Shown: one piece after another, positions 54,570 through 64,000 of the stretch
Layout of the letters: every line of letters starts with the position of its first letter
Numbering within the stretch: position 1 is the stretch's first letter
Source: Ensifer sesbaniae
GTDB taxonomy: Bacteria; Pseudomonadota; Alphaproteobacteria; Rhizobiales; Rhizobiaceae
DNA: 64,000 nucleotides
Reading direction: 5' to 3'
NCBI RefSeq assembly: GCF_013283665.1
Contig: NZ_JABEKU010000001.1
Span: 3,045,137-3,109,136, forward strand
The notes under the pieces: generated by a model
The model's input: only the letters and a program-made list of their open reading frames with translations
Database searches by the model: none
Told to the model about the DNA's origin: nothing
Program-made: the position numbers and the translations under genes

Positions 54570-54646
54570 GCACCCGTAGCTCAGCTGGATAGAGTGTTGG
54601 ATTCCGATTCCAAAGGTCACAGGTTCGAATCCTGTCGGGTGCGCCA
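54570..54646 (+). tRNA. tRNA-Arg(CCG)
   Basis: A complete 77-nt tRNA gene including encoded CCA. The acceptor stem pairs GCACCCG with CGGGTGC; the D arm contains AGCTCAGCTGGATAGAGT; the anticodon stem TTGGA/TCCAA closes the loop TTCCGAT with anticodon CCG; the T arm has GGTTCGAATCC. The integrase gene begins its stop just 38 bases downstream, so the 3' end of this tRNA is the likely attachment site. From memory, the S. meliloti pSymB copy of this tRNA is essential. Confidence 0.96.
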
Positions 54647-54683
54647 TTTCTAGATTTCCTTTCATGAAATCAAGGCTTTAAGA

Positions 54684-55751
54684 CTAGGATTCCACTAACC
54701 CATCGTTTGGGTTAGGCAATTTGATGATAAACGATTGCTCCGATTTGGCCATAGCGGCACGGCTCAATCGCTTCATTTCGGCTGCTTTCGTGTACCTCTC
54801 TATCTCTTTGATATCCCGGTGACCGGTGATCGACATGATCTCCAGAGCGGTGCATCCTGATTCGGCAAGACGCCGGCAGGCTGCTTTTCGGAGGCCATGA
54901 GGGGAAGAGTTCGACGGCAGTCCAGCAGCATGGGCCGCTTCCCGCAGCCAGTTCGTGAAAGCCTTCTCCGATCTGGCGGAGCCGTAGACCGTCGATATGA
55001 ACGTCTCTCTCCCTCGTGGCAGATCGAAGAGGAACGCTAGATCGCTGTGCAGCGGGATATGAAGCTCCACGATCTCCTGTGACTTCTTGGTGTTGATCAC
55101 GAAGGCATCGTCGACGATATGCTGCCATCCCAGACGGACAGCATCAGACCGGCGCAAGCCGGTATGCAGAAGCACCTCCATGGCGATCCGCTCCGGCTGA
55201 CCTTCCTTCCACTTCTCGCGATATGCGGCGATGTCGGCTTCGGTCCAACTCCGGTAGCCCTTGGACTTCGTCTTGATCCGCTTCGCTTCTTTCGCTGGAT
55301 TGACCTGGATCATCCCGACTGACTTGGCATACTCGAAAACCGATGACAGCCTTTTCCGAAGGATGTTCGCAGCGGCCGGCGTCTCTGCCTTCCCGTCGAT
55401 CAGCACGTTGATGTGCTTCGTCTGGATCCCCGCAATCGGCGCATGACCATGCTCTTTCGCGAAGGCATCGAGGATGCGGCGATAGACCTGCTTGCTCGAG
55501 TCCGCCAGCTGGGCGAACTCGGCGCTGCGATAGTAGCCCTGTATGGCTGCGCCCATCGATCCGGCAACCGGAGGCTTTCCGGCCGATACCGGTTCGGCCG
55601 CCTTGGCCCGGTGGTACGCGATCCAGAACTCTTCAGAATACAAAGGGCCAGGCAAAGCCACCTGTGGCTTTCCCGGCTCTCTATAATAGATACGCTGTGT
55701 GTCGTGACGGTCCTGATAGACGTTCACGTACTTTGGTTTTCGAAGCCGCAC
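54684..55751 (-). CDS. int: Tyrosine integrase
   Basis: A 355-residue site-specific recombinase. An arm-binding N-terminal region is followed by a SAM-like core-binding domain (about 60-150) and the catalytic domain with R200 (HTGLRRSDAVRL), K222/K223, H285 and R288 (SPHGLRKAACRRL), H311 (TGHRDIKEIE) and Y320 (ERYTKAAEM). All catalytic residues are intact, so the element may still move. Its 3' end faces the tRNA and it overlaps the AlpA-like gene by 28 bases, so both are read from the same transcript. Confidence 0.95.
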   Translation of the reverse strand: MRLRKPKYVNVYQDRHDTQRIYYREPGKPQVALPGPLYSEEFWIAYHRAKAAEPVSAGKPPVAGSMGAAIQGYYRSAEFAQLADSSKQVYRRILDAFAKEHGHAPIAGIQTKHINVLIDGKAETPAAANILRKRLSSVFEYAKSVGMIQVNPAKEAKRIKTKSKGYRSWTEADIAAYREKWKEGQPERIAMEVLLHTGLRRSDAVRLGWQHIVDDAFVINTKKSQEIVELHIPLHSDLAFLFDLPRGRETFISTVYGSARSEKAFTNWLREAAHAAGLPSNSSPHGLRKAACRRLAESGCTALEIMSITGHRDIKEIERYTKAAEMKRLSRAAMAKSEQSFIIKLPNPNDGLVES

Positions 55752-55978
55752 ACCTTATCCCAATAGCTGGAATTGTTATCGTTAGCCGCAGTATAGACGG
55801 GCTTGGCGAAAAGGGAATCGAGGTCATGTCGATCCCAGATCATCACCCCGAAAATGTCACGCGGCGGAGGGATTGCGCCCTCCTTCCGCTTGCGGTCAAA
55901 CAGGGTCGGGCTGATCCCGATATAGCGGGCTGCATCTTCGCGGCGGAGGCCACGAGGGACGAAATCAGCCGAGGACAC
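55724..55978 (-). CDS. AlpA/excisionase-like HTH protein
   Basis: An 84-residue MerR-like winged-helix protein: LRREDAARYIGISPTLFDRK is the helix-turn-helix and VMIWDRHDLDSLF the wing end, as in AlpA regulators and excisionases. It overlaps both the integrase gene and the gene upstream. In Gram-negative PICIs AlpA is the master activator; here it sits at the end of the structural operon, so an excisionase task is also possible. Confidence 0.75.
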   Translation of the reverse strand: MSSADFVPRGLRREDAARYIGISPTLFDRKRKEGAIPPPRDIFGVMIWDRHDLDSLFAKPVYTAANDNNSSYWDKVCGFENQST

Positions 55979-56498
55979 GCGCGGCCTCCCGATGCTCGAC
56001 GCTCAGGGTACGGGCAAGGCCCTCGACAGCTTCTGTATCGCTCGCGTCCTCATGGACGTGAAACGTTGCCGGGACCACGATCCGCTCAATCGGTTGCTCG
56101 AATGGATCGGCGCCGATCGTCTTGCCGGTGACATGATCGCGGCGAACCGGCTTCTCAGCAAATCGCCTTGCGGCATTGAGGCCGGTCTGTTGCTTCACGG
56201 TCGGCTCTTCTGGCATCTCGCCACCCATACGCTCGAACATGTCGCGCAGTTTCTCCGTCAGATCGCGTGCGAACGCTCCCCGATGAAACCACTGGATCAA
56301 CGGTCGATCCGCCAGGCGGGGCGAGGAAGGCGAATGAGCAACGAAGCCACGATCAGGTGACCATGTCAGCCGAACGTCATGGAGCGTCATGTGAAGCTCA
56401 GGAATGAAGACCTCAGCCATTGCCAGGGTCTTGTACGCGCGGGTGCCATCGTCGTTGATGAACAGCCGCATTCCGCGGATTTTGGTGTTGAAGGTCAC
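55965..56498 (-). CDS. Hypothetical protein of the island, 177 aa
   Basis: A 177-residue protein without a recognised family. The first half is beta-rich (FINDDGTRAYKTLAMAEVFIPELHMTLHDVRLTW in pieces), the middle has a helix LTEKLRDMFERMGGE, and the rest is charged. It overlaps its two neighbours by 4 and 14 bases, so it belongs to the head-int operon. It might interfere with a host or helper, or be a head decoration; neither is shown. Confidence 0.65.
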   Translation of the reverse strand: MTFNTKIRGMRLFINDDGTRAYKTLAMAEVFIPELHMTLHDVRLTWSPDRGFVAHSPSSPRLADRPLIQWFHRGAFARDLTEKLRDMFERMGGEMPEEPTVKQQTGLNAARRFAEKPVRRDHVTGKTIGADPFEQPIERIVVPATFHVHEDASDTEAVEGLARTLSVEHREAARVLG

Positions 56499-56836
56499 GT
56501 TGCGACTCCTGTTTCTGTGAGCATGTTGACGAACGCTTTCCGCTCATCCGGCTCGATTGATCTGATGTTGTAGACTTCTCCTGTGCGGCCGTTCTTCGCC
56601 CGCCAGGCGCTGCTCACAGTGGCGAAGTCGGGTTGCCACCTCATGTTGATCGCTACCGTCTGCGTGCCGCCGAGACGGCCCGCCATGACCGTCTCTGTGC
56701 CCCTCAAGATTTGGATGCGGGCCGGTGCAGACCAGACCGTTTCCCACGGTCCAGCCTGCTCATTTCCGAAGCCGTCATCCACGAGGGTCCGGAACTGCAT
56801 CTCGATAACTTCCCGAAGGTCGCCCGCGCCGGTCAT
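56495..56836 (-). CDS. Phage head-tail adaptor protein
   Basis: A 113-residue protein of the head-tail joining family (PF05521 type): GPWETVWSAPARIQILRG, then TVAINMRWQPDF and RTGEVYNIRSIEPDERK are the usual pattern. Its ATG overlaps the portal stop (ATGA). It closes the portal side of the capsid for tail docking; its presence suggests tails are obtained from elsewhere or encoded outside the window. Confidence 0.82.
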   Translation of the reverse strand: MTGAGDLREVIEMQFRTLVDDGFGNEQAGPWETVWSAPARIQILRGTETVMAGRLGGTQTVAINMRWQPDFATVSSAWRAKNGRTGEVYNIRSIEPDERKAFVNMLTETGVAT

Positions 56837-58047
56837 ACCTGGTCCTCGACCTTCGCGCGGTTGTCGTTGGCGCCGACGATCCCCATATTGAGCGGCTGCA
56901 CATAGCTGTCGCCATCTGCAATCTTGCTCATGTTCTCGAAGGCGCGGATCTCGTTCGCACTCAGCCATCCGCCCTCGCGGCCTACGCGGTAAGCGTTGTA
57001 GCGGCTGACCAGATCGCCCCTCATGAGGCCCGCCAGGTCATGCTCAATAAAGAGCGTCTTGCGCGCATCCGGCGAAAGCAACTGGATCGTCATGGCCATC
57101 TCGACACGCTTGGCCCATGGTGCCAGGCACCGCATGACTAGCGCGCGGCTCTCCTCGCCGATGTTGCTGTAGGTCGCATCATCGGTGATGCCTGCGACCG
57201 ACGGCGGGACGCCGTACACTCGGCAGATATCAAGGTTGCTCAGCTTCCGGCTCTCGAGAAATTCCGAATCCTTGCTCGAAAACTGGAACGTCTCGAACTT
57301 CGCCCCACCGTCCAAGACCATGACCTCGTTGGCCTTCAACTGGCCGAGGAACCTTTCCTTGAACTTGGTGATGACGTTCTCTTTGCTGCCTGGACCGGTG
57401 CCGGCCGCCAGCTTGTCGGGGAACACAAGCGCGCCGGCAGGACGGAAGGCGTTTTCAGCAGCCGCCCCTGCCTGATCCTGTTGCGCCAAAGCAAGGCCGA
57501 ACGCTGCACTAGCAATCTGGATCGGCGACATGCCCAGAATGCCGTCCTTGGTCCGATATCGAACGTGCAGAACGTCGTCCTGCAGAAGAGTTTCCGTGCC
57601 ACCGTCAGACTTTGCGTACTTATACCGCAGTCTGCCAGTGGTCAGCTTCTCGACCGTGACAGAGCCAGCCACGAGAGGGGAAAGGCCGGTGACCTGGCCG
57701 CGCCCGTTTCGCTCGATCTTGGCGTAGCCGTTGCCGTAGGTCAGTGCCGATGCCAGCAGCCATTCCCGCGCCTCGAAGGCGGTCAGGGTTGCCGAAGCCT
57801 GGTCATGCAGGACCGCATAGAGCGGATGATCGGTAGCGGCTTCCCGGCCGCCATCTGCCGTCTTGCGATAGACCTTCAACGGGACCGATGCGAGGTTTTC
57901 GGCGATGACAGAGATGCAGCGATGGGCGACCGCATGACCGCTCGCCTTCTCGATATCAGCTCGCCCCTGCCAGCGCGCTCCAAGGAACTCGCCGAGGAAA
58001 GGATCGCTGGTCGCGATCCGCTTCTCTTGCTTCGAAAAGGGCCACAT
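56833..58047 (-). CDS. HK97-family portal protein
   Basis: A 404-residue portal protein, the dodecameric DNA channel at one capsid vertex. It opens MWPFSKQEKR and contains SGHAVAHRCISVIAENLASVPLKVY in pieces, LTYGNGYAKIERNGRGQV, and SKDSEFLESRKLSNLDICRVYGVPPS, which is the portal clip/wing signature. The length is usual. It begins one base into the protease stop codon region, so it is translationally coupled. Confidence 0.93.
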   Translation of the reverse strand: MWPFSKQEKRIATSDPFLGEFLGARWQGRADIEKASGHAVAHRCISVIAENLASVPLKVYRKTADGGREAATDHPLYAVLHDQASATLTAFEAREWLLASALTYGNGYAKIERNGRGQVTGLSPLVAGSVTVEKLTTGRLRYKYAKSDGGTETLLQDDVLHVRYRTKDGILGMSPIQIASAAFGLALAQQDQAGAAAENAFRPAGALVFPDKLAAGTGPGSKENVITKFKERFLGQLKANEVMVLDGGAKFETFQFSSKDSEFLESRKLSNLDICRVYGVPPSVAGITDDATYSNIGEESRALVMRCLAPWAKRVEMAMTIQLLSPDARKTLFIEHDLAGLMRGDLVSRYNAYRVGREGGWLSANEIRAFENMSKIADGDSYVQPLNMGIVGANDNRAKVEDQV

Positions 58048-58574
58048 TAGCGAACGCCCTCCAGTTCCAGCAGAGCAATGCGACGATCAGCATCCGTCCG
58101 ACGCTGGCGAGAGCGAGCCTGCACGCTGGTGCCGCCATATGCCGGGAAGGACTGGACCACACTGATCTCGTGCAGGACGACGTTGCGCAGTTCGCGCTTG
58201 TCTCCGGCCCAACTGTCGCCGCCATCCGGGACCGTGAAGCCGAAGCTCATGCCGCCCAGATCGCCCCTCGCGGCCAGTGCCAGCACGTCACGGCCGGCAC
58301 TGGTGTCGGGAACGTCCAGTTCGAACTTCAGGCCACGTTCATCCTCAGAGAGGCGCAGGGTGCCGCTCTTGGTCCTCGCCAGGACGCGCGATGGATCATG
58401 ATCCACGAGGGCGAGAATGTCGGGATTGGAGCGCAGGGAAGCGGCGAACGCGCCTGGCGCGATCTTCTCATGGAAATCGAGGATCCGGGTTTCGGTGTTG
58501 AACGTCGCGGCATAGCCGGTCAGCTTGCGGCCCTCTGCGCGAATTTCCGTCGCGATACGCTTCTCAATGGTCAT
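58047..58574 (-). CDS. HK97-family prohead protease
   Basis: A 175-residue herpes-like serine protease that matures the capsid. TGYAATFNTETRILDFHEKIAPGAF is the N-terminal half in pieces; the catalytic histidine is in LVDHDPSRVLART and the catalytic serine in LGGMSFGFTV. It overlaps the connector gene by 4 bases. Confidence 0.92.
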   Translation of the reverse strand: MTIEKRIATEIRAEGRKLTGYAATFNTETRILDFHEKIAPGAFAASLRSNPDILALVDHDPSRVLARTKSGTLRLSEDERGLKFELDVPDTSAGRDVLALAARGDLGGMSFGFTVPDGGDSWAGDKRELRNVVLHEISVVQSFPAYGGTSVQARSRQRRTDADRRIALLELEGVR

Positions 58575-58849
58575 AGGCTTTGCTCCCGGAAGGGCTGAAG
58601 CAATGCGTTCACGCCGAACGGCATGGCAGCAATGCCGGCCGTGGTGACGGCTTCGCGGTTGTTGAAGAAGTGGGAAACGATCAGCAGCACGGCATGACGG
58701 ACGGCGGGTTGAATGGGAGTGGCGAATGCCACCCCCACCGATTCCACGTAGTCCTCAGCCGCCTCGATCAGCCCAGTGATGTACGCGTCATCCGTAGCAA
58801 AGGTGATGCGGAGATGCGCCTTGGCGTCAGCGAGGTCGACCTCTGACAT
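58571..58849 (-). CDS. Head-tail connector, gp6-like
   Basis: A 92-residue helical protein: VDLADAKAHLRI at the start and DDAYITGLIEAAEDYVESVG are the hallmark of gp6/YqbG-like DNA-packaging connectors. It begins on the stop codon of the capsid gene and overlaps the protease gene, an unusual place, since connectors normally follow the capsid on the tail side. Confidence 0.85.
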   Translation of the reverse strand: MSEVDLADAKAHLRITFATDDAYITGLIEAAEDYVESVGVAFATPIQPAVRHAVLLIVSHFFNNREAVTTAGIAAMPFGVNALLQPFREQSL

Positions 58850-60009
58850 TAGACGCCCTTCCAGGCGAAGCTTTCAACGTGGCGAACAGCAACGTCAGCA
58901 TCAAGGAAGGCGTGCAGTCGCAGACCGCCCTTGGATGCGTCCGAATACGGATTCGCGAGGATATCGACGCCAGACCAGTAGCCGATGACCAGATCATTCC
59001 AGTGACCGTAAATCAGCGGCTCCTTGTTGGGGGTGCCAGTGATCGTCTTCACCTGCGTGGTCGTGGTGACGGACTTCTGGTGGAAGATCTCCGAAGCCGG
59101 GATATTGCGGTCGGTCGTATCCTTCAGCTTGCGGACAAGCGCCATAAGCTTCGGATTGGTCAGGAACGCGCCCGTACCCATCACGTCGTCGATCTCAAGC
59201 GCCGCAATCAGATCGGCGGCGATATCGGTGATCTCGGTCGAGGTCGTGCCATCTTCGGCGATGACCGCCATGATGCCGTCGGGCTCGTTGGCCGAACCGT
59301 TGCCCTTGATCGCCGCAGCGTCCAGCGCCTGCGCCAGTACGAAGCCGAGGTCACGGCGAAGCAGATCTTCGATCGCAACGCTGTTCTGAAGCGTCAGGCG
59401 GCGGGAGAGGTACATTTCGCCGGTGACGGTCTTCGGCGACATGGCCACCTTGTCGAAGGTCGCGTCAGAGGCCGTCGATGCGCCGTCTTCGGCTACCCAC
59501 GAGGAAGTGGGACCAGAGGTCAGGCGCGGAAGGTCGAAGTTGCCGGTCAGGCCAGAGATGACCGTGGCGCCCATGCCCTGCACTGCGAGAGTCGGACGAA
59601 GGCGATCGATCAGGCCGCCGAGATTGGTTGCAACCGTATTGCCGGCCGAACCGCCTACCGTCATGGCGCGGTTCTCAAGGATCATGGAAGTCGGGACCAT
59701 GACACCACGCGCCTCGCGGCCCTTGCTCAGTTCGTCATGCTGTTCGCGCTCGACGCCCGTCAGCGTGCCAGCAGCGCCCTCGCGGATGGCCTTGGCAACC
59801 GAGTAACTGCGCAGTTCGCGTACCTTGGAAGCGTCCGGTTCTGCGTCAGCCTGGCGCTCGAACTCGGCGAGCGTTGCGGCACGCTTGATATCCTTGTCGA
59901 GCGCGCGGACTTCAGCTTCGAGTTTGTCGAAGGCTTCGGCGTTGTTGACAGCAGCCTTCATCTCTGCAATTTTCCCGGCGCGCTGTTCATTCAAGTGATG
60001 TACGTTCAA
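58849..60009 (-). CDS. HK97-family major capsid protein
   Basis: A 386-residue capsid subunit. The first ~65 residues are a charged coiled coil (delta domain, scaffold removed by the protease); the HK97 fold follows, with LPRLTSGPTSSWVAEDGAST, the E-loop and P-domain helix region SVAIEDLLRRDLGFVLAQALDAA in pieces, and IYGHWNDLVIGYWSGVDIL near the end. The start codon is TTG at 60009, preceded by AAAGGA; no ATG is in a better place. Confidence 0.93.
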   Translation of the reverse strand: MNVHHLNEQRAGKIAEMKAAVNNAEAFDKLEAEVRALDKDIKRAATLAEFERQADAEPDASKVRELRSYSVAKAIREGAAGTLTGVEREQHDELSKGREARGVMVPTSMILENRAMTVGGSAGNTVATNLGGLIDRLRPTLAVQGMGATVISGLTGNFDLPRLTSGPTSSWVAEDGASTASDATFDKVAMSPKTVTGEMYLSRRLTLQNSVAIEDLLRRDLGFVLAQALDAAAIKGNGSANEPDGIMAVIAEDGTTSTEITDIAADLIAALEIDDVMGTGAFLTNPKLMALVRKLKDTTDRNIPASEIFHQKSVTTTTQVKTITGTPNKEPLIYGHWNDLVIGYWSGVDILANPYSDASKGGLRLHAFLDADVAVRHVESFAWKGV

Positions 60010-60182
60010 AGTGTGTCCTTTCGAAAGACAGTTGATGGGTTTGGTTTCGTTTCTCAGGCGGTCACCATCCCCGTTGCTTTCCTCGCCAATCGGTCGAGGT
60101 TATTCCCGCACAAGCGCGGAAATGCCGAAAAGCCCGGTCACCGTATGGGTGCCAGGCTAAAAACCTTCAGATTGAATTCCCC

Positions 60183-60293
60183 TCACAGGTAGCGGCCAAA
60201 TCGGCGCCTTCCTATTGTTGCGCTCTTGCGCAGTCCCCGTTGCCGTCTCCGGCGGCTATCAGCGGTTGTCCCGCATCCATGGCGAATCGCCAT
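60183..60293 (-). CDS. Possible small Arg-rich peptide, 36 aa
   Basis: A short frame (MAIRHGCGTTADS then an Arg-rich tail) starts only about 9 bases after the expected transcription start of the promoter described just upstream, with AGAAG as a weak ribosome-binding site. It is highly basic and has no family. It may be a leader peptide or spurious. The rest of 60010-60300 shows no gene. Confidence 0.3.
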   Translation of the reverse strand: MAIRHGCGTTADSRRRRQRGLRKSATIGRRRFGRYL

Positions 60294-60308
60294 TTCTTCT
60301 ATTTTTGT

Positions 60309-60351
60309 ATGGTAGCAAATTTTTACATTTTTGTCAAGATATTTCTTGACA
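60309..60351 (-). promoter_or_regulatory. Sigma-70-type promoter with overlapping palindromic operator
   Basis: On the minus strand TTGACA (60337-60332), 17 bases and TACCAT (60314-60309) make a near-consensus promoter, rare in this GC-rich DNA. The -35 box lies inside an 8-bp inverted repeat, TGTCAAGA-TATT-TCTTGACA (60332-60351), so a bound repressor would block it. It points at the capsid-portal-int operon. Confidence 0.75.
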
Positions 60352-60491
60352 TTCAACGTAAATTGTGATCCGCGCCAACAAAGTTGTATATAGGCGGATG
60401 AATGAAGACCGACAAGGGCTTGATAGAAAAAGACCGGCCAGCGCGCTCGACGTGTAGGGCGAGGTGGTGGTCGCGCTGGCCATTGGTGACT

Positions 60492-60568
60492 TGGAGCCCT
60501 CGGCAGGGGTCGAACCTGCATCATCCATTACGTCTGTCAGGATAGAAGGCCTGCGACGGTACGAGGGC
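60492..60568 (-). other. tRNA-like element with reduced D arm
   Basis: On the minus strand a 77-nt stretch has a perfect 7-bp acceptor stem (GCCCTCG/CGAGGGC), a 3' T-CCA end, TA at positions 8-9 and a perfect T arm (GCAGG-TTCGACC-CCTGC). Between them a 4-bp stem CAGG/CCTG holds a loop CCTTCTAT that looks like a tRNA-Arg(TCT) anticodon loop. The D arm is shrunk to a few bases and the segment before the T arm is long, so it is not a standard cloverleaf. It starts 8 bases after the stop of the small gene at 60576. Confidence 0.5.
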
Positions 60569-60575
60569 GAAACTG

Positions 60576-60827
60576 CTAGAGAGGCTCGCCGTGCACGGCC
60601 CAATAGAACTTGTTCCTCAGATCCTGCGCCCTTGATTGGACCTCGTAGAGCGCGAAGATCACTCCATTCGCCTCATCGTCCGAGAGATGGCCGATGCTGT
60701 GCTCGAAGTTAACGACGCCCTCGATGTGCGAAACAGCGATGCGGGTCATGTTCAGCAACCCGCAGATCGGATCCTCAAGATCGGATGGCTTCAGCGGTAG
60801 TGGACCATTAACCGTAGCATGGATCAT
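60576..60827 (-). CDS. Small island protein, 83 aa, divergent from the HTH gene
   Basis: An 83-residue mostly helical protein (LSDDEANGVIFALYEVQSRAQ in its second half) with no recognised family. The ATG at 60827 is preceded by GAGGTG at good spacing; one nine codons upstream lacks a site. It is divergent from a small XRE regulator across 88 bases with two inverted repeats, so it is probably under that regulator. Confidence 0.6.
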   Translation of the reverse strand: MIHATVNGPLPLKPSDLEDPICGLLNMTRIAVSHIEGVVNFEHSIGHLSDDEANGVIFALYEVQSRAQDLRNKFYWAVHGEPL

Positions 60828-60865
60828 TTCAGGGCACCTCGTTGCGCTCGTCATCGATATTAGGT

Positions 60866-60923
60866 ATCAACATTTTCTATTGATTTATCACACGCGCTTC
60901 GCGTGTCAACAGAAAATGTTGAT
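60866..60923. promoter_or_regulatory. Nested inverted repeats of the divergent control region
   Basis: A perfect 13-bp inverted repeat (ATCAACATTTTCT at 60866-60878, AGAAAATGTTGAT at 60911-60923) encloses a second hairpin with arms ACACGCG and CGCGTGT (60890-60906). The outer arms lie on both promoter sides, and the right one overlaps the start of the XRE gene. A candidate operator for that protein. Confidence 0.7.
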
Positions 60924-61143
60924 CGCTATGAAACCTTCGCAATGCCGCGCAGCCAGAGCGCTGCTTGACTGGACGCAACCGCAGTTGGCGACAGCCGCAG
61001 GACTCGGCCTGTCCACCGTGGTCGATTTTGAGAAGGAACGAAGATCTGTATCGATAGACGCTACCGCAGCGATGCGGACAGCGCTTGAGGCGGCCGGTAT
61101 CGAGTTCATCAACGGAACGGGTGTGAAGATCGCCAGGCCATGA
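60916..61143 (+). CDS. Small XRE-family HTH regulator
   Basis: A 75-residue protein (71 if the second ATG at 60928 is used) that is almost only a helix-turn-helix: CRAARALLDWTQPQLATAAG and LSTVVDFEKERRSV. This short XRE type is common in rhizobial prophages and islands. It is the only visible gene on the plus strand within the island and probably sets its repressed state. Confidence 0.82.
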   Translation: MLIAMKPSQCRAARALLDWTQPQLATAAGLGLSTVVDFEKERRSVSIDATAAMRTALEAAGIEFINGTGVKIARP

Positions 61144-61327
61144 GGGGCAAGGAGCAATGCCTCCCCTTATTACAAACTTGGAGGCGCTTGAGGCATGCCT
61201 CAATGTGACGCTATGCGACACCCCTCTATATATACTCTCCACGAGAAGCCATAAAAGGTCACTTTTCGCCGAAAAAAGTTGCCCCGCCGCCAGAAGATGA
61301 CGGCAGGGTGTTGCCATATTGTCGCAA

Positions 61328-61597
61328 TTAGGACTTGTGGACTTTCTCAGCCCGAACAAAGAACATGCTGGCCGTATTCAGGATAGTTTCATCCCGAGGC
61401 GCGTTTCTATCCGTTCCTGGCGGAAGAAAGTCCTCGAATTCCTCCCTCGACCAATCCGGCCCAAGGAGCTTCACGAGAGTGCCGTCGACCGCACCGACCT
61501 CATAGACCATGGAGCTTTCATAGGTCGCCCATTTGCCCTCATAGTTATCGCCAGTCTCCAGCATTACTATGTTGTAGCTGCATCCAACTTCAAACAT
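61328..61597 (-). CDS. Hypothetical island protein, 89 aa
   Basis: An 89-residue acidic beta-rich protein (VMLETGDNYEGKWATYESSMV, then DWSREEFEDFLPPGTD) without a recognised family. The ATG at 61597 follows CAGGAG by six bases and lies 12 bases after the terminase stop, so it is read with it. Between it and the XRE gene, 61144-61327 holds no gene but has a perfect 16-bp palindrome TTGAGGCATGCCTCAA at 61188. Confidence 0.6.
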   Translation of the reverse strand: MFEVGCSYNIVMLETGDNYEGKWATYESSMVYEVGAVDGTLVKLLGPDWSREEFEDFLPPGTDRNAPRDETILNTASMFFVRAEKVHKS

Positions 61598-61609
61598 TCC
61601 CATCTCCTG

Positions 61610-63247
61610 TTATGCCGCCAGCAGGCACGCTGGCAGTGATTCCGGCTCGTGCCGCGATGCAATTTGCAACCCCATGGCGAGCGCGACAAGTCCATCTATA
61701 CGTCCGCTGGCCTTACTCTTATCCAGCTTGCGCGCCCCCGCTGGATCGACCGTCACGACGGCATTGGCAGCACACATGCGCATCAACTGATTTCCAGCAT
61801 GGTTCAGCTTCTGCTGCGCGACCGTCACCTCAAGAACGTCCACGGCCGGAGACATGTCCTTGTAGCCCTGCCCGAACGGCACGAGCGGTAGTTCGACCGA
61901 TAGCTTTTCAAGCTCGCGCTTCAGATCCTCAATGCGCCAACGGTCGAAGGCGATTTCCTTGATGTCGAAGCGGGCGGCCTCGTCGGCGATGTATTCGGCC
62001 ACGAGGGCGGGATCGATCACCTTGCCAGGAAGCAGGGTCAGCCGTGCGTCTGCCTGCTTCGCCCAGACATTATATGGAACGCGATCGGTGTCGCTCTTGC
62101 CCTCGATGTCGAACTCCGGGAGGAAGAACCGCGGCAAGACCGTGTAGCGGCCATCCTCTTCGGGGAACACGAGAACGAAACAAGTCAAATCCCGCGCAGC
62201 CGATAAGTCCAAGGCCCCGAAGCATTCACGCCCCTCCAGTTCCTTGTCATCGATCGGACCAAGGTTGCAGTCGTTCCACTCCCTCGCCGCAATAAAGCGC
62301 ACAGTGCCGTCAATCCGCTGGTTCAAGACCTTGTTGCGGAAATCGGCCTCCTTCGACGGTATGCGCTGCGCCTGCATCGCCATGCGCTCGACCTGCTCAT
62401 AGGAGAGGAAGTCGCCGAGGGCGGGGTTTGCCTTCTCCCACGTTGCTGGATCCCACGGATCATCATCCATGCTGGCCGAGAAAATGGCCAGGTGGAAGGA
62501 GTCGTCCTCGACTTCGCCGTCTCTGATCTTCAAGCCGTAATCGATCATTTCGGAGAAGAAGTGCGTGTCGTCCTTGGCCTGCGTCGAGATGGCAACGATC
62601 AGCGGCTCATCACGTGCGCCGAGGGCGGAGTCCATCGCGTCGAACAGGTCACGCTTCGGCCAATATCCGATCTCGTCGCAGAGAACGAATGAAGGCGACA
62701 ATCCGAGCTTGGAGTCCGCGTCGGCTGACAGAGCCTTCAGGACCGATCCCTTGCCCTGACCGTCGAGGACTTCGATCTCCTTAGAGAACCGGATGATGTT
62801 CACCCGCTGCGAAAGCTCTGGGTGCGCCTCCAACATGGCCTTGCATTCTGCCCATGCCTTTGCCGCCTGCGCCTTATCCATGGCGCAAAAATAGATCTCG
62901 CCTCGCTCTTCAGCTTCTGGACCCACGAGGAAGCAGAGGGCCAAAGCTGCCGAGATTCCAGTTTTCCCGTTTTTGCGGCCCATAGAGAGGGCGGCCGTGC
63001 GAACGCGCCGCTTGCCCTCGTCATCCTCCGTGAAGATCGGCTCGAGAAACTGCTCAATCTGCCAATCGCGAAGTTTCATCTTCGTGCCGGCCAGCTTGCC
63101 TTGTGTGACTGGCATGTCCTCCATGAAGGCGATGACACGCTCCAGCCTGTCGAGGCCTTCAGCCTCCCATGGAAGCTCTTCGCGAAGGTTGCTGTTGGCC
63201 GCGATCAGGGTCTTTTTGGGCTTCGCGCCTGGTCCCCTTAGACCCAT
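61610..63247 (-). CDS. terL: Phage terminase large subunit
   Basis: A 545-residue packaging motor. Walker A is SMGRKNGKTG (residues 88-97), Walker B VLCDEIGYW; the C-terminal nuclease has GALDLSAARDLT with acidic metal residues and AFDRWRIEDLK. It is a Terminase_1 (HK97/lambda-like) member. The first residues, LRGPGAKPKK, resemble the opening of small terminases. It overlaps the HNH gene by 10 bases; no separate small terminase gene is seen. Confidence 0.93.
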   Translation of the reverse strand: MGLRGPGAKPKKTLIAANSNLREELPWEAEGLDRLERVIAFMEDMPVTQGKLAGTKMKLRDWQIEQFLEPIFTEDDEGKRRVRTAALSMGRKNGKTGISAALALCFLVGPEAEERGEIYFCAMDKAQAAKAWAECKAMLEAHPELSQRVNIIRFSKEIEVLDGQGKGSVLKALSADADSKLGLSPSFVLCDEIGYWPKRDLFDAMDSALGARDEPLIVAISTQAKDDTHFFSEMIDYGLKIRDGEVEDDSFHLAIFSASMDDDPWDPATWEKANPALGDFLSYEQVERMAMQAQRIPSKEADFRNKVLNQRIDGTVRFIAAREWNDCNLGPIDDKELEGRECFGALDLSAARDLTCFVLVFPEEDGRYTVLPRFFLPEFDIEGKSDTDRVPYNVWAKQADARLTLLPGKVIDPALVAEYIADEAARFDIKEIAFDRWRIEDLKRELEKLSVELPLVPFGQGYKDMSPAVDVLEVTVAQQKLNHAGNQLMRMCAANAVVTVDPAGARKLDKSKASGRIDGLVALAMGLQIASRHEPESLPACLLAA

Positions 63248-63651
63248 CGGTTGGCCTCCCGGTTAGGCAAAATCAAAACTAAGTCTTTGTTCGTCTCCCC
63301 CGCCGGTACCTGGCCGTCGATCGGCCGTCCTGCGAAGGCCCCCGTTTCCCATCCCTCTGGATCGATCGGGTTGCCATCCACGTCATAGCCCTTGAGCGCG
63401 CGCCTGAAGCCGGATGCATTGGGATGGTCCTTGGCGTTCGTCTTCGCGTTGTGGCACGGCTCACACATCGACATGAGACCGGCCAAGGGCGGGAAAGGAT
63501 CGCCGCCCTTGGCTATCGCGATGATGTGGTCAACGACCTTGGCCTCCTCCACGACCTCCCGGCGAAGGCAGGCTTCGCAGAGAGGCTGGACCGAGAGCTT
63601 AGCAGCGCGGAGACCGCGCCACTGTGGTGTACCGTATGGCCAAGCGGTCAT
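63238..63651 (-). CDS. HNH endonuclease
   Basis: A 137-residue HNH nuclease: zinc cysteines in LCEACLRR and MCEPCHNAKT, and the HNH core from VVDHIIAIAKGGD to CHNAKTNAKDH. HNH proteins beside terL are needed for DNA packaging cleavage in HK97-like phages and satellites. It overlaps both its neighbours (4 and 10 bases). Confidence 0.92.
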   Translation of the reverse strand: MTAWPYGTPQWRGLRAAKLSVQPLCEACLRREVVEEAKVVDHIIAIAKGGDPFPPLAGLMSMCEPCHNAKTNAKDHPNASGFRRALKGYDVDGNPIDPEGWETGAFAGRPIDGQVPAGETNKDLVLILPNREANRWV

Positions 63652-64000
63652 GCTTCACCTCCGCGACGAAGGAAGGCAGGCGGTTCGAAGTCATCGTCCT
63701 CACCATCCTTCATCTGCTGATACATATTCGTCAGAGGGGTTGTTACCGGTTCATGGTGCAGGGGGGCGGTAACATCGGTAACAACGGTAACAACACCATC
63801 ATCATCCTCAGTCTCGTCCTGCCCTTCATAGTCCATTGTTACCTTGTTACCGTTGTTACCAGTGGTAGGGGTGTGAGCGTCGGTAACAACGAAGTCGGGA
63901 TGAATGTAGCTGCCACGCCCTGATTTCTGGACTTCCCCGGCCTCGACCATCTTCAAGAGCAGCCGCCGAATGTTACCGCTCTTCATACCGGTAACAACCA
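63648..64000 (-). CDS. C-terminal part of a probable replication protein (primase/AAA type), cut by the window edge
   Basis: The frame is open from the right edge to 63648 (117 codons visible). Its start, VVTGMKSGNIRRLLLKMVEAGEVQKSGRGSYIHP in pieces, is a winged-helix of the kind found at the C-terminus of phage primase or AAA-type replication proteins; the remaining tail is acidic and Thr/Val-rich. It overlaps the HNH gene by 4 bases. The enzyme domain lies outside the window, so the call is inferred. Confidence 0.6.
   Translation of the reverse strand, partial: VVTGMKSGNIRRLLLKMVEAGEVQKSGRGSYIHPDFVVTDAHTPTTGNNGNKVTMDYEGQDETEDDDGVVTVVTDVTAPLHHEPVTTPLTNMYQQMKDGEDDDFEPPAFLRRGGEA
63742..63995. 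repeat. Ten GGTAAC words in both orientations
   Basis: GGTAAC occurs at 63768, 63777, 63786, 63882 and 63990; its complement GTTACC at 63742, 63838, 63846, 63855 and 63972. Two triplets with 8-9 base period face each other around 63814. They lie inside the replication-protein frame. This may be iteron-like or simple codon repetition. Confidence 0.6.

Follow-up and report, generated by a model that had tools for sequence, protein, structure and literature searches.

Gene content and boundaries of the island

The stretch analysed here (the window) comprises 64,000 nucleotides of the 6.9-Mb genome of Ensifer sesbaniae (contig C1, positions 3045137-3109136), and its final part holds an integrated island of phage-like genes, which an earlier note made from the sequence alone had described as a tail-less, capsid-encoding phage satellite. 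The island lies between two copies of a perfect direct repeat, the attachment (att) sites, which are 11,177 bp apart and give its size. It runs just 1.8 kb beyond the window and ends at 65826 (window numbering continued), which corrects the extent of 54620-64000 given before. The island is ~92% coding, with 15 called genes. In minus-strand order, beginning at the end away from the tRNA, these are a 76-aa open-reading frame (ORF), a replication protein (Rep), an HNH endonuclease, the large terminase (TerL), orf91, a divergent helix-turn-helix (HTH) gene on the plus strand and orf92, then, after a conserved non-coding stretch, the major capsid, the connector Ad1, an S78 protease, the portal, the head closure protein Hc1 (head-completion protein, HCP), hypA, an AlpA-like HTH gene and an integrase, which is separated from a tRNA-Arg (CCG) gene by 37 bp (Table 1). 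Past the second att copy follow genes for a LysR regulator, a cupin and an N-acetyltransferase.

Much of the earlier description stands: the integrase at the tRNA has an open frame, carrying what we take to be catalytic-type motifs, the likely replication protein is a 649-aa primase/helicase-like Rep, and HNH, TerL, capsid, gp6-like connector, S78 protease, portal and HCP all pass their Pfam cut-offs in a run of genes where neighbours overlap by 1-28 bases. The start of the head-completion gene had been set at 56968 and is moved to 56836 (113 aa), and the candidate repressor at 60928-61143, the only called gene on the plus strand and one for which relatives were found, is an addition. The AlpA-like gene holds as an HTH regulator (10 aligned members, 57-88% identical to the window protein), the name AlpA less well, as the protein had no Pfam match at 0.001 and PHROGs gives only a generic HTH transcriptional regulator. 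Tail and lysis genes between position 64000 and the second att site had been named as the outcome that would make the element a normal prophage; extension past the window adds only the remainder of Rep and the 76-aa ORF.

Table 1 Features of the island (window coordinates) and its sister islands
Feature	Position or size	Strand	Evidence or site
tRNA-Arg (CCG), integration target	54570..54646	+	ARAGORN; Rfam tRNA
att site	54630..54649		20-bp perfect direct repeat at tRNA-Arg 3' end; partner 65807-65826 outside window
Tyrosine integrase, 355 aa	54684..55751	-	PF00589 4e-17, PF22022; phrog_1; dN/dS 0.07-0.08; frame open
AlpA-like HTH regulator or excisionase, 84 aa	55724..55978	-	phrog_25900 7e-11
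hypA, conserved satellite protein, possibly SpoVG-like, 177 aa	55965..56498	-	20-member alignment
Head completion / head closure Hc1 protein (HCP), 113 aa	56495..56836	-	PF05521 4e-14; phrog_25
Portal protein, 404 aa	56833..58047	-	PF04860 1e-95
Prohead protease (S78), 175 aa	58047..58574	-	PF04586 6e-43
gp6-like head-tail connector Ad1, 92 aa	58571..58849	-	PF05135 3e-13; phrog_40
HK97-type major capsid protein, 386 aa	58849..60009	-	PF05065 1e-31
Conserved non-coding leader 5' of capsid gene, terminator-like hairpin	60010..60330	-	69% mean column identity, 9 members
orf92, small protein also in contig C3 element	60576..60854	-	67.5% identity / 80 aa; 295-bp DNA block 76.6%
HTH_3-type candidate repressor, 71 aa	60928..61143	+	PF01381 4e-4, 20.7 bits (cut-off 23); PHROGs
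orf91, conserved small beta-rich protein after TerL	61328..61603	-	13-member alignment; model pLDDT 86
Large terminase TerL, 545 aa	61610..63247	-	PF20441, PF03354; dN/dS 0.06-0.07
HNH endonuclease, 137 aa	63238..63651	-	PF01844; phrog_2323
Rep, primase/helicase-like replication protein, 649 aa	63648..65597 (window part to 64000)	-	AAA_25 4.5e-27; phrog_239 DNA primase/helicase 3e-33
R. leguminosarum Vaf-46 island	11,240 bp between repeats		tRNA-Thr
Ensifer adhaerens L18 island	11,135 bp between repeats		tRNA-Arg CCG
Gellertiella hungarica island (L027)	11,175 bp between repeats		tRNA-Arg CCG
R. wenxiniae island (L028)	11,162 bp between repeats		tRNA-Ser TGA
Agrobacterium vitis island (L030)	10,304 bp between repeats		tRNA-Ser GGA
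Labrenzia THAF82 island (L031)	10,338 bp between repeats		no tRNA by ARAGORN
Roseibium island (L032)	10,538 bp between repeats		no tRNA by ARAGORN
Afipia Root123D2 island	11,165 bp between repeats		tRNA-Arg TCT

An empty site was found in one congener (G210), in which the tRNA gene is joined straight to sequence found here past the second repeat, the match being 46 bp at 96% identity, 20 bp of which are the repeat itself. Two others (G203 and G208) have 43-48 bp at 84% adjoining their tRNA, and nothing matched at the empty site in the remaining 12 congeners (16 genus genomes searched, own included). The LysR-cupin genes stand beside this tRNA-Arg in no congener searched and lie on another contig in G199 and G207 (87-88% identity), so the DNA past the second att site is host DNA, not syntenic. 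Among the congeners searched (L196-L211) the DNA past tRNA-Arg(CCG) varies, and the tRNA therefore looks like an integration hot spot.

A family of islands of near-constant size under purifying selection

Relatives were collected with TerL, using the best 80 of 234 matches in species genomes and the best 80 rows from viral contigs (IMG/VR). Eight sister islands with both ends and the capsid-connector-protease-portal order were recovered from Rhizobium, Ensifer, Gellertiella, Agrobacterium, Labrenzia, Roseibium and Afipia, with 10,304-11,240 bp between their repeats; three further loci (L029, L033 and L034) are short contigs holding part of the element. Rhizobiaceae supply the closest of the named carriers. 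The att-like repeats of the sister islands are 14-22 bp, in a search that also gave chance repeats of 13-17 bp, and the 14-bp repeats of R. wenxiniae and Roseibium are supported by their position (at a tRNA end, and with a core as in Labrenzia, respectively). Among the best 80 IMG/VR rows, 26 contigs carry a TerL at least 52% identical, 24 of which span 8,985-12,169 bp and have the order TerL-capsid-protease-portal. TerL, portal and capsid occur together at 84 of the 227 loci examined: 40 have the order TerL-capsid-protease-portal, with TerL scores of 384-1230 bits, and the other 44 are ordered as in phages, with TerL at no more than 321 bits, so that the two score ranges do not meet. The 40 cases are not independent, as at least six share their TerL with another and one (L190) is the window itself.

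Pairwise ratios of nonsynonymous to synonymous substitution rates (dN/dS) were computed with as many as six members that carry information, which L190, having the window's own sequence, does not. TerL gave 0.06-0.07 and the integrase 0.07-0.08, while the ratios of protease, portal and capsid were 0.03-0.20, 0.09-0.19 and 0.09-0.33; many dS values are close to or over 1, and orf91 was saturated. Constraint was looser in hypA (0.16-0.43), Rep (0.11-0.40), HCP (0.17-0.36) and the connector (0.17-0.37), the last giving 0.87 against locus L110 at a dS of only 0.03. The head genes are thus under purifying selection. The window shares 98% of its capsid but only 61% of its Rep with L110, and 95% of its Rep but 76% of its capsid with Gellertiella, and L025 and the R. 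wenxiniae island (L028) have a different integrase at the opposite end; modules, the integration module included, are exchanged independently.

These data bear on whether the island could be a decayed prophage which lost its tail and lysis genes and kept its head genes by chance. Short phage-like regions are common in this group, PHASTER having scored 1160 of 1860 Hyphomicrobiales prophages as incomplete with length as one criterion (PMC11080155), and no helper is known for the island. Yet its called genes are open, densely coding and under purifying selection, nine islands of near-constant size sit at several tRNA genes, and the 40 loci share their gene order with no tailed example seen (tails searched in part only). 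Neither tail or lysis genes nor decay of the remaining genes was found, and size constancy, selection and gene order largely refute a prophage remnant, an origin we regard as highly improbable. The island belongs to a conserved satellite lineage, similar in its working to the capsid-forming phage-inducible chromosomal islands (cf-PICIs). The eight further islands, purifying selection and the empty site support the earlier proposal of a Rhizobiales satellite whose genes follow an order of their own, as well as its mobility, and we consider it very likely that the 11.2-kb island, complete and integrated, is a phage satellite with a self-made head and a borrowed tail.

Some members depart from the common plan. 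The A. vitis, Labrenzia and Roseibium islands are without a recognisable HCP, hypA and alpA-like gene after the portal. The R. wenxiniae island is ordered integrase, Pfam AlpA, AAA_25 Rep, HNH, TerL, capsid module and a DUF4062 cargo gene, near the usual PICI layout, its AlpA being a true Pfam match (30.2 bits, cut-off 21) directly after the integrase; the DUF4062 gene at the island end (L028:16146-17135) is possible defence cargo, with no PADLOC match. A divergent 10-kb viral contig (L136) has the integrase first, then connector and HCP before HNH-TerL, followed by capsid-protease-portal, and is perhaps another satellite arrangement.

Tail, lysis and small terminase genes

The absence of tail and lysis genes claimed in the earlier note agrees with our family searches: no tail, baseplate or lysis family matched among the 15 called genes in Pfam and PHROGs (a scan of called genes, not of every small ORF), and the same PHROGs scan does recognise such families in a control phage (L149; TerL 40% identical), where it finds the tail terminator, major tail protein and tape measure along with a small terminase (TerS). 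Stop-to-stop ORFs of more than 684 aa occur in none of the nine islands, so that no long tape measure is present. The eight sister islands contain 44 unassigned ORFs; a scan of 20 of these gave one tail-like result, below threshold (see below).

The only match to a TerS family in the 15 called genes was a weak one, of the HNH protein to phrog_4581 (4e-6), which ranked under most of its HNH families, and TerS was recognised by the same scan in the control phage and in a second head-coding element on contig C3 (see below). HNH and TerL overlap or sit within ~240 bp in mapped members, a gap too short for the usual TerS gene; a very divergent TerS may lie elsewhere in the island.

These results leave room for a satellite whose head genes remodel or poison the helper capsid and which, like an ordinary PICI, would be carried in helper heads. 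It would fit the missing TerS, the members without Hc1 and the 92-aa, 91-aa and hypA proteins, which are unexplained, but remodelling satellites require one or two head genes only, and here the head set is complete and conserved (capsid, protease, portal, two neck proteins, TerL and HNH). We judge it highly improbable.

Neck proteins such as Ad1 and Hc1 serve to join a tail, and for that reason they are the strongest hint of tail docking. They also bear on a self-sufficient tail-less virus released without a helper, for which replication, head and packaging genes are all at hand: conserved neck proteins of the tailed-phage kind would be pointless without a tail, and no lysis or entry gene was recognised among the called genes, so that such a virus is scarcely credible.

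Comparison with known satellites and phages

The feature list of cf-PICIs comprises capsid, protease, portal, connectors, HNH, TerL, TerS, alpA and the replication initiator Pri-Rep (PMC10690885 and PMC10448857), and their capsids are said to form three clades (PMC11389934). The island has the major capsid, prohead protease, portal, head-tail connectors, HNH and TerL, as well as an integrase with att sites and no recognised tail or lysis genes. Its Rep, matching a DNA primase/helicase family and AAA_25, may or may not be a Pri-Rep, and its AlpA-like protein may or may not be an alpA homologue. The cf-PICI likeness drawn in the earlier note holds for the head, HNH, TerL and integration features and stops at the small terminase, which was sought in the 15 called genes and not recognised; strict cf-PICI membership is for this reason not claimed.

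For a direct comparison, 198 Enterobacteriaceae genomes were searched with the portal, of which 34 had a match; the protease lies 5' of the portal in 9 of 33 loci examined. Four of these (L305-L308) were fetched and are taken, by gene order and not by name, to be enterobacterial cf-PICIs of the EcCIEDL933 type; the EDL933 reference cf-PICI was not in the 50 kb looked at, which contained other elements. Their order is int-alpA-rep-cargo-capsid-protease-portal-HCP-connector-HNH-TerS-TerL, with TerS, AlpA and replication genes assigned by eye, without family search, and the repeats in L306 and L307 are 17.0 and 15.7 kb apart. They share with the rhizobial island an integrase at one end, an AlpA-like gene (by eye, L305 and L306), a replication gene, the inverted HK97-type capsid-protease-portal-HCP block, connector, HNH and TerL. 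The rhizobial island differs in placing HNH-TerL before the capsid, the connector between capsid and protease and int/alpA at the far end, in having no recognisable TerS and in its size of 11.2 kb. One of the enterobacterial islands encodes a 1108-aa protein after TerL (L306:2020-5346) which by eye, again without family search, looks like a tail tape measure, and L306 may be a satellite setting its own tail length.

HK97-like phages, the closest isolates examined, have a homologous TerL (HK022, 39%) and portal (Marinobacter AS1, 39%), but in the order TerS-TerL-portal-protease-capsid followed by tail genes, and none of 50,697 phage records reached 60% identity for TerL, portal or capsid. The Streptomyces phage satellites MulchRoom and MiniFlayer likewise carry head and packaging genes, the MulchRoom tail being thought to derive from its helper, and differ in their direct terminal repeats and virulent helpers, in the want of a recognised primase and in possessing TerS and a scaffolding protein (PMC10690885).

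In a 71-row portal tree, which drew its phages at random and left out L136, L241, L186 and L141, the rhizobial, enterobacterial and C3 groups each form one clade (100/100, 100/100 and 100/99); a satellite ancestor common to them is possible, the topology that unites all three having a p-AU of 0.548 (no rejection). In an earlier portal tree L136 left the group, the set fell into two pieces and every phage portal fell on the same side (97/90), which no longer held once more phages were added. The TerL tree took in 84 of 155 rows (32 satellite-order, 22 of 44 phage-order and 30 of 79 unclassified, leaving out short matches and eight loci that are mostly copies of others), and 31 of the 32 satellite-order rows fall in one clade (SH-aLRT 92), with L136 outside on a long branch. 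Literature searches, which did not cover the 2023 cf-PICI and satellite-survey lists, gave no account of such satellites in Rhizobiales. The kind of system is already known, that is, cf-PICI-like, and the arrangement is new, subject to the published lists.

A second head-coding element in the same genome

The genome's only other PF05065 capsid and only other HCP gene lie in an element of ~16 kb on contig C3 (G000:C3:313492-329947, L218/L219), which also encodes a serine integrase, TerL, TerS, a hypA-like protein, a connector, a portal and a primase-like Rep, the capsid, as judged by length and by eye, seeming to include a protease part. The C3 element differs from the window island in its serine integrase, its TerS and its order (Rep-portal-capsid-connector-HCP-hypA-TerS-TerL), yet the two share orf92 and a 295-bp DNA block (Table 1), a hypA-like protein (30% over 104 aa) and HCP (50%). 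No tail gene was seen in it, from a PHROGs scan of six proteins, and its ends were not found. The C3 TerL has 39 relatives in viral contigs, 25 of them on contigs of 14-21 kb, 13 on shorter ones and one on a contig of 58 kb. A strain that has two unlike head-coding elements would allow competition for tails to be tested directly.

Selection on the head genes and the lack of lysis genes would also suit a domesticated host particle, a gene transfer agent or other tail-less compartment, but the integrase, att repeats and empty site mark a mobile element. The islands sit at different tRNAs, the one in the window carries its own Rep, the spread is patchy (a strong capsid match, E below 1e-80, in 3 of 199 genomes of the order, own included), and the genome's one further PF05065 capsid belongs to the C3 element; domestication seems very improbable.

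Proposed life cycle of the satellite

The gene set of a head-making, tail-borrowing satellite suggests how it could work. The divergent HTH protein would keep the island silent until infection by a helper phage lifts the repression, upon which the integrase, aided by the AlpA-like protein, would excise the island and Rep would copy it. TerL and HNH would then pack island DNA into self-made heads, a helper tail would dock on the island's own Ad1/Hc1 neck, and the helper would lyse the cell. We infer the borrowing of the tail from the gene content.

Several points weigh against this reading. Two tail models tried on the whole host genome gave no match, and no resident helper was seen. As TerS is not recognisable, packaging by the island itself can only be proposed. 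The A. vitis, Labrenzia and Roseibium members are without Hc1 even by family profile, and the docking model may thus not fit all. The only tail-like result was a sub-threshold match of an ORF in the Rep position (L041:7902-9449) to a podophage fiber-tail adaptor (E 0.094), the tail scans did not take in L119/L195 (17 kb) and L131 (30-kb contig), and several relatives are draft or metagenome contigs.

More tentatively, and with less than even confidence, Rhizobiales may hold an independently arisen class of tail-stealing satellites which package by HNH and TerL without TerS, and recognise their DNA through the conserved structured site before the capsid and/or orf91 and hypA, with two unlike classes of such satellites sharing the one genome and trading neck, hypA and orf92 genes.

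The island adds to Rhizobiales, plant-associated genera included, a satellite lineage that is compact, well bounded and probably tail-borrowing, in a group in which elements this short may be classed as incomplete prophages. Its rearranged head module and missing TerS offer a simple way to test what a satellite needs of its own for head building and packaging.

Small proteins and the non-coding leader

Defence genes were sought with PADLOC in 10 proteins and nothing convincing was found, the one weak match being to orf92 (E 0.006). The model of hypA (pLDDT 78) has four strands plus helices, and the best sensible PDB match in Foldseek was SpoVG (prob 0.82, but E 0.16 and ranked sixth); among the hypA members Pfam SpoVG matched 1 of 20 at E 0.06, and 10 Pfam families weakly matched one or two members, so that the likeness to SpoVG is only suggestive. 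As a small terminase or neck protein hypA was rejected: nothing matched the window protein at 0.001 in the family scans, and phrog_6582 came up only at E 0.2. For orf91 there is a weak SH3-like resemblance, with matches of the ribosomal protein L19 type at E 0.04 or worse.

The conserved leader upstream of the capsid gene matched no Rfam family and shows compensatory change in 5 of 43 predicted pairs. We put forward this ~320-bp stretch, as a suggestion only, as the best candidate for a packaging (cos) site or a regulatory leader RNA.

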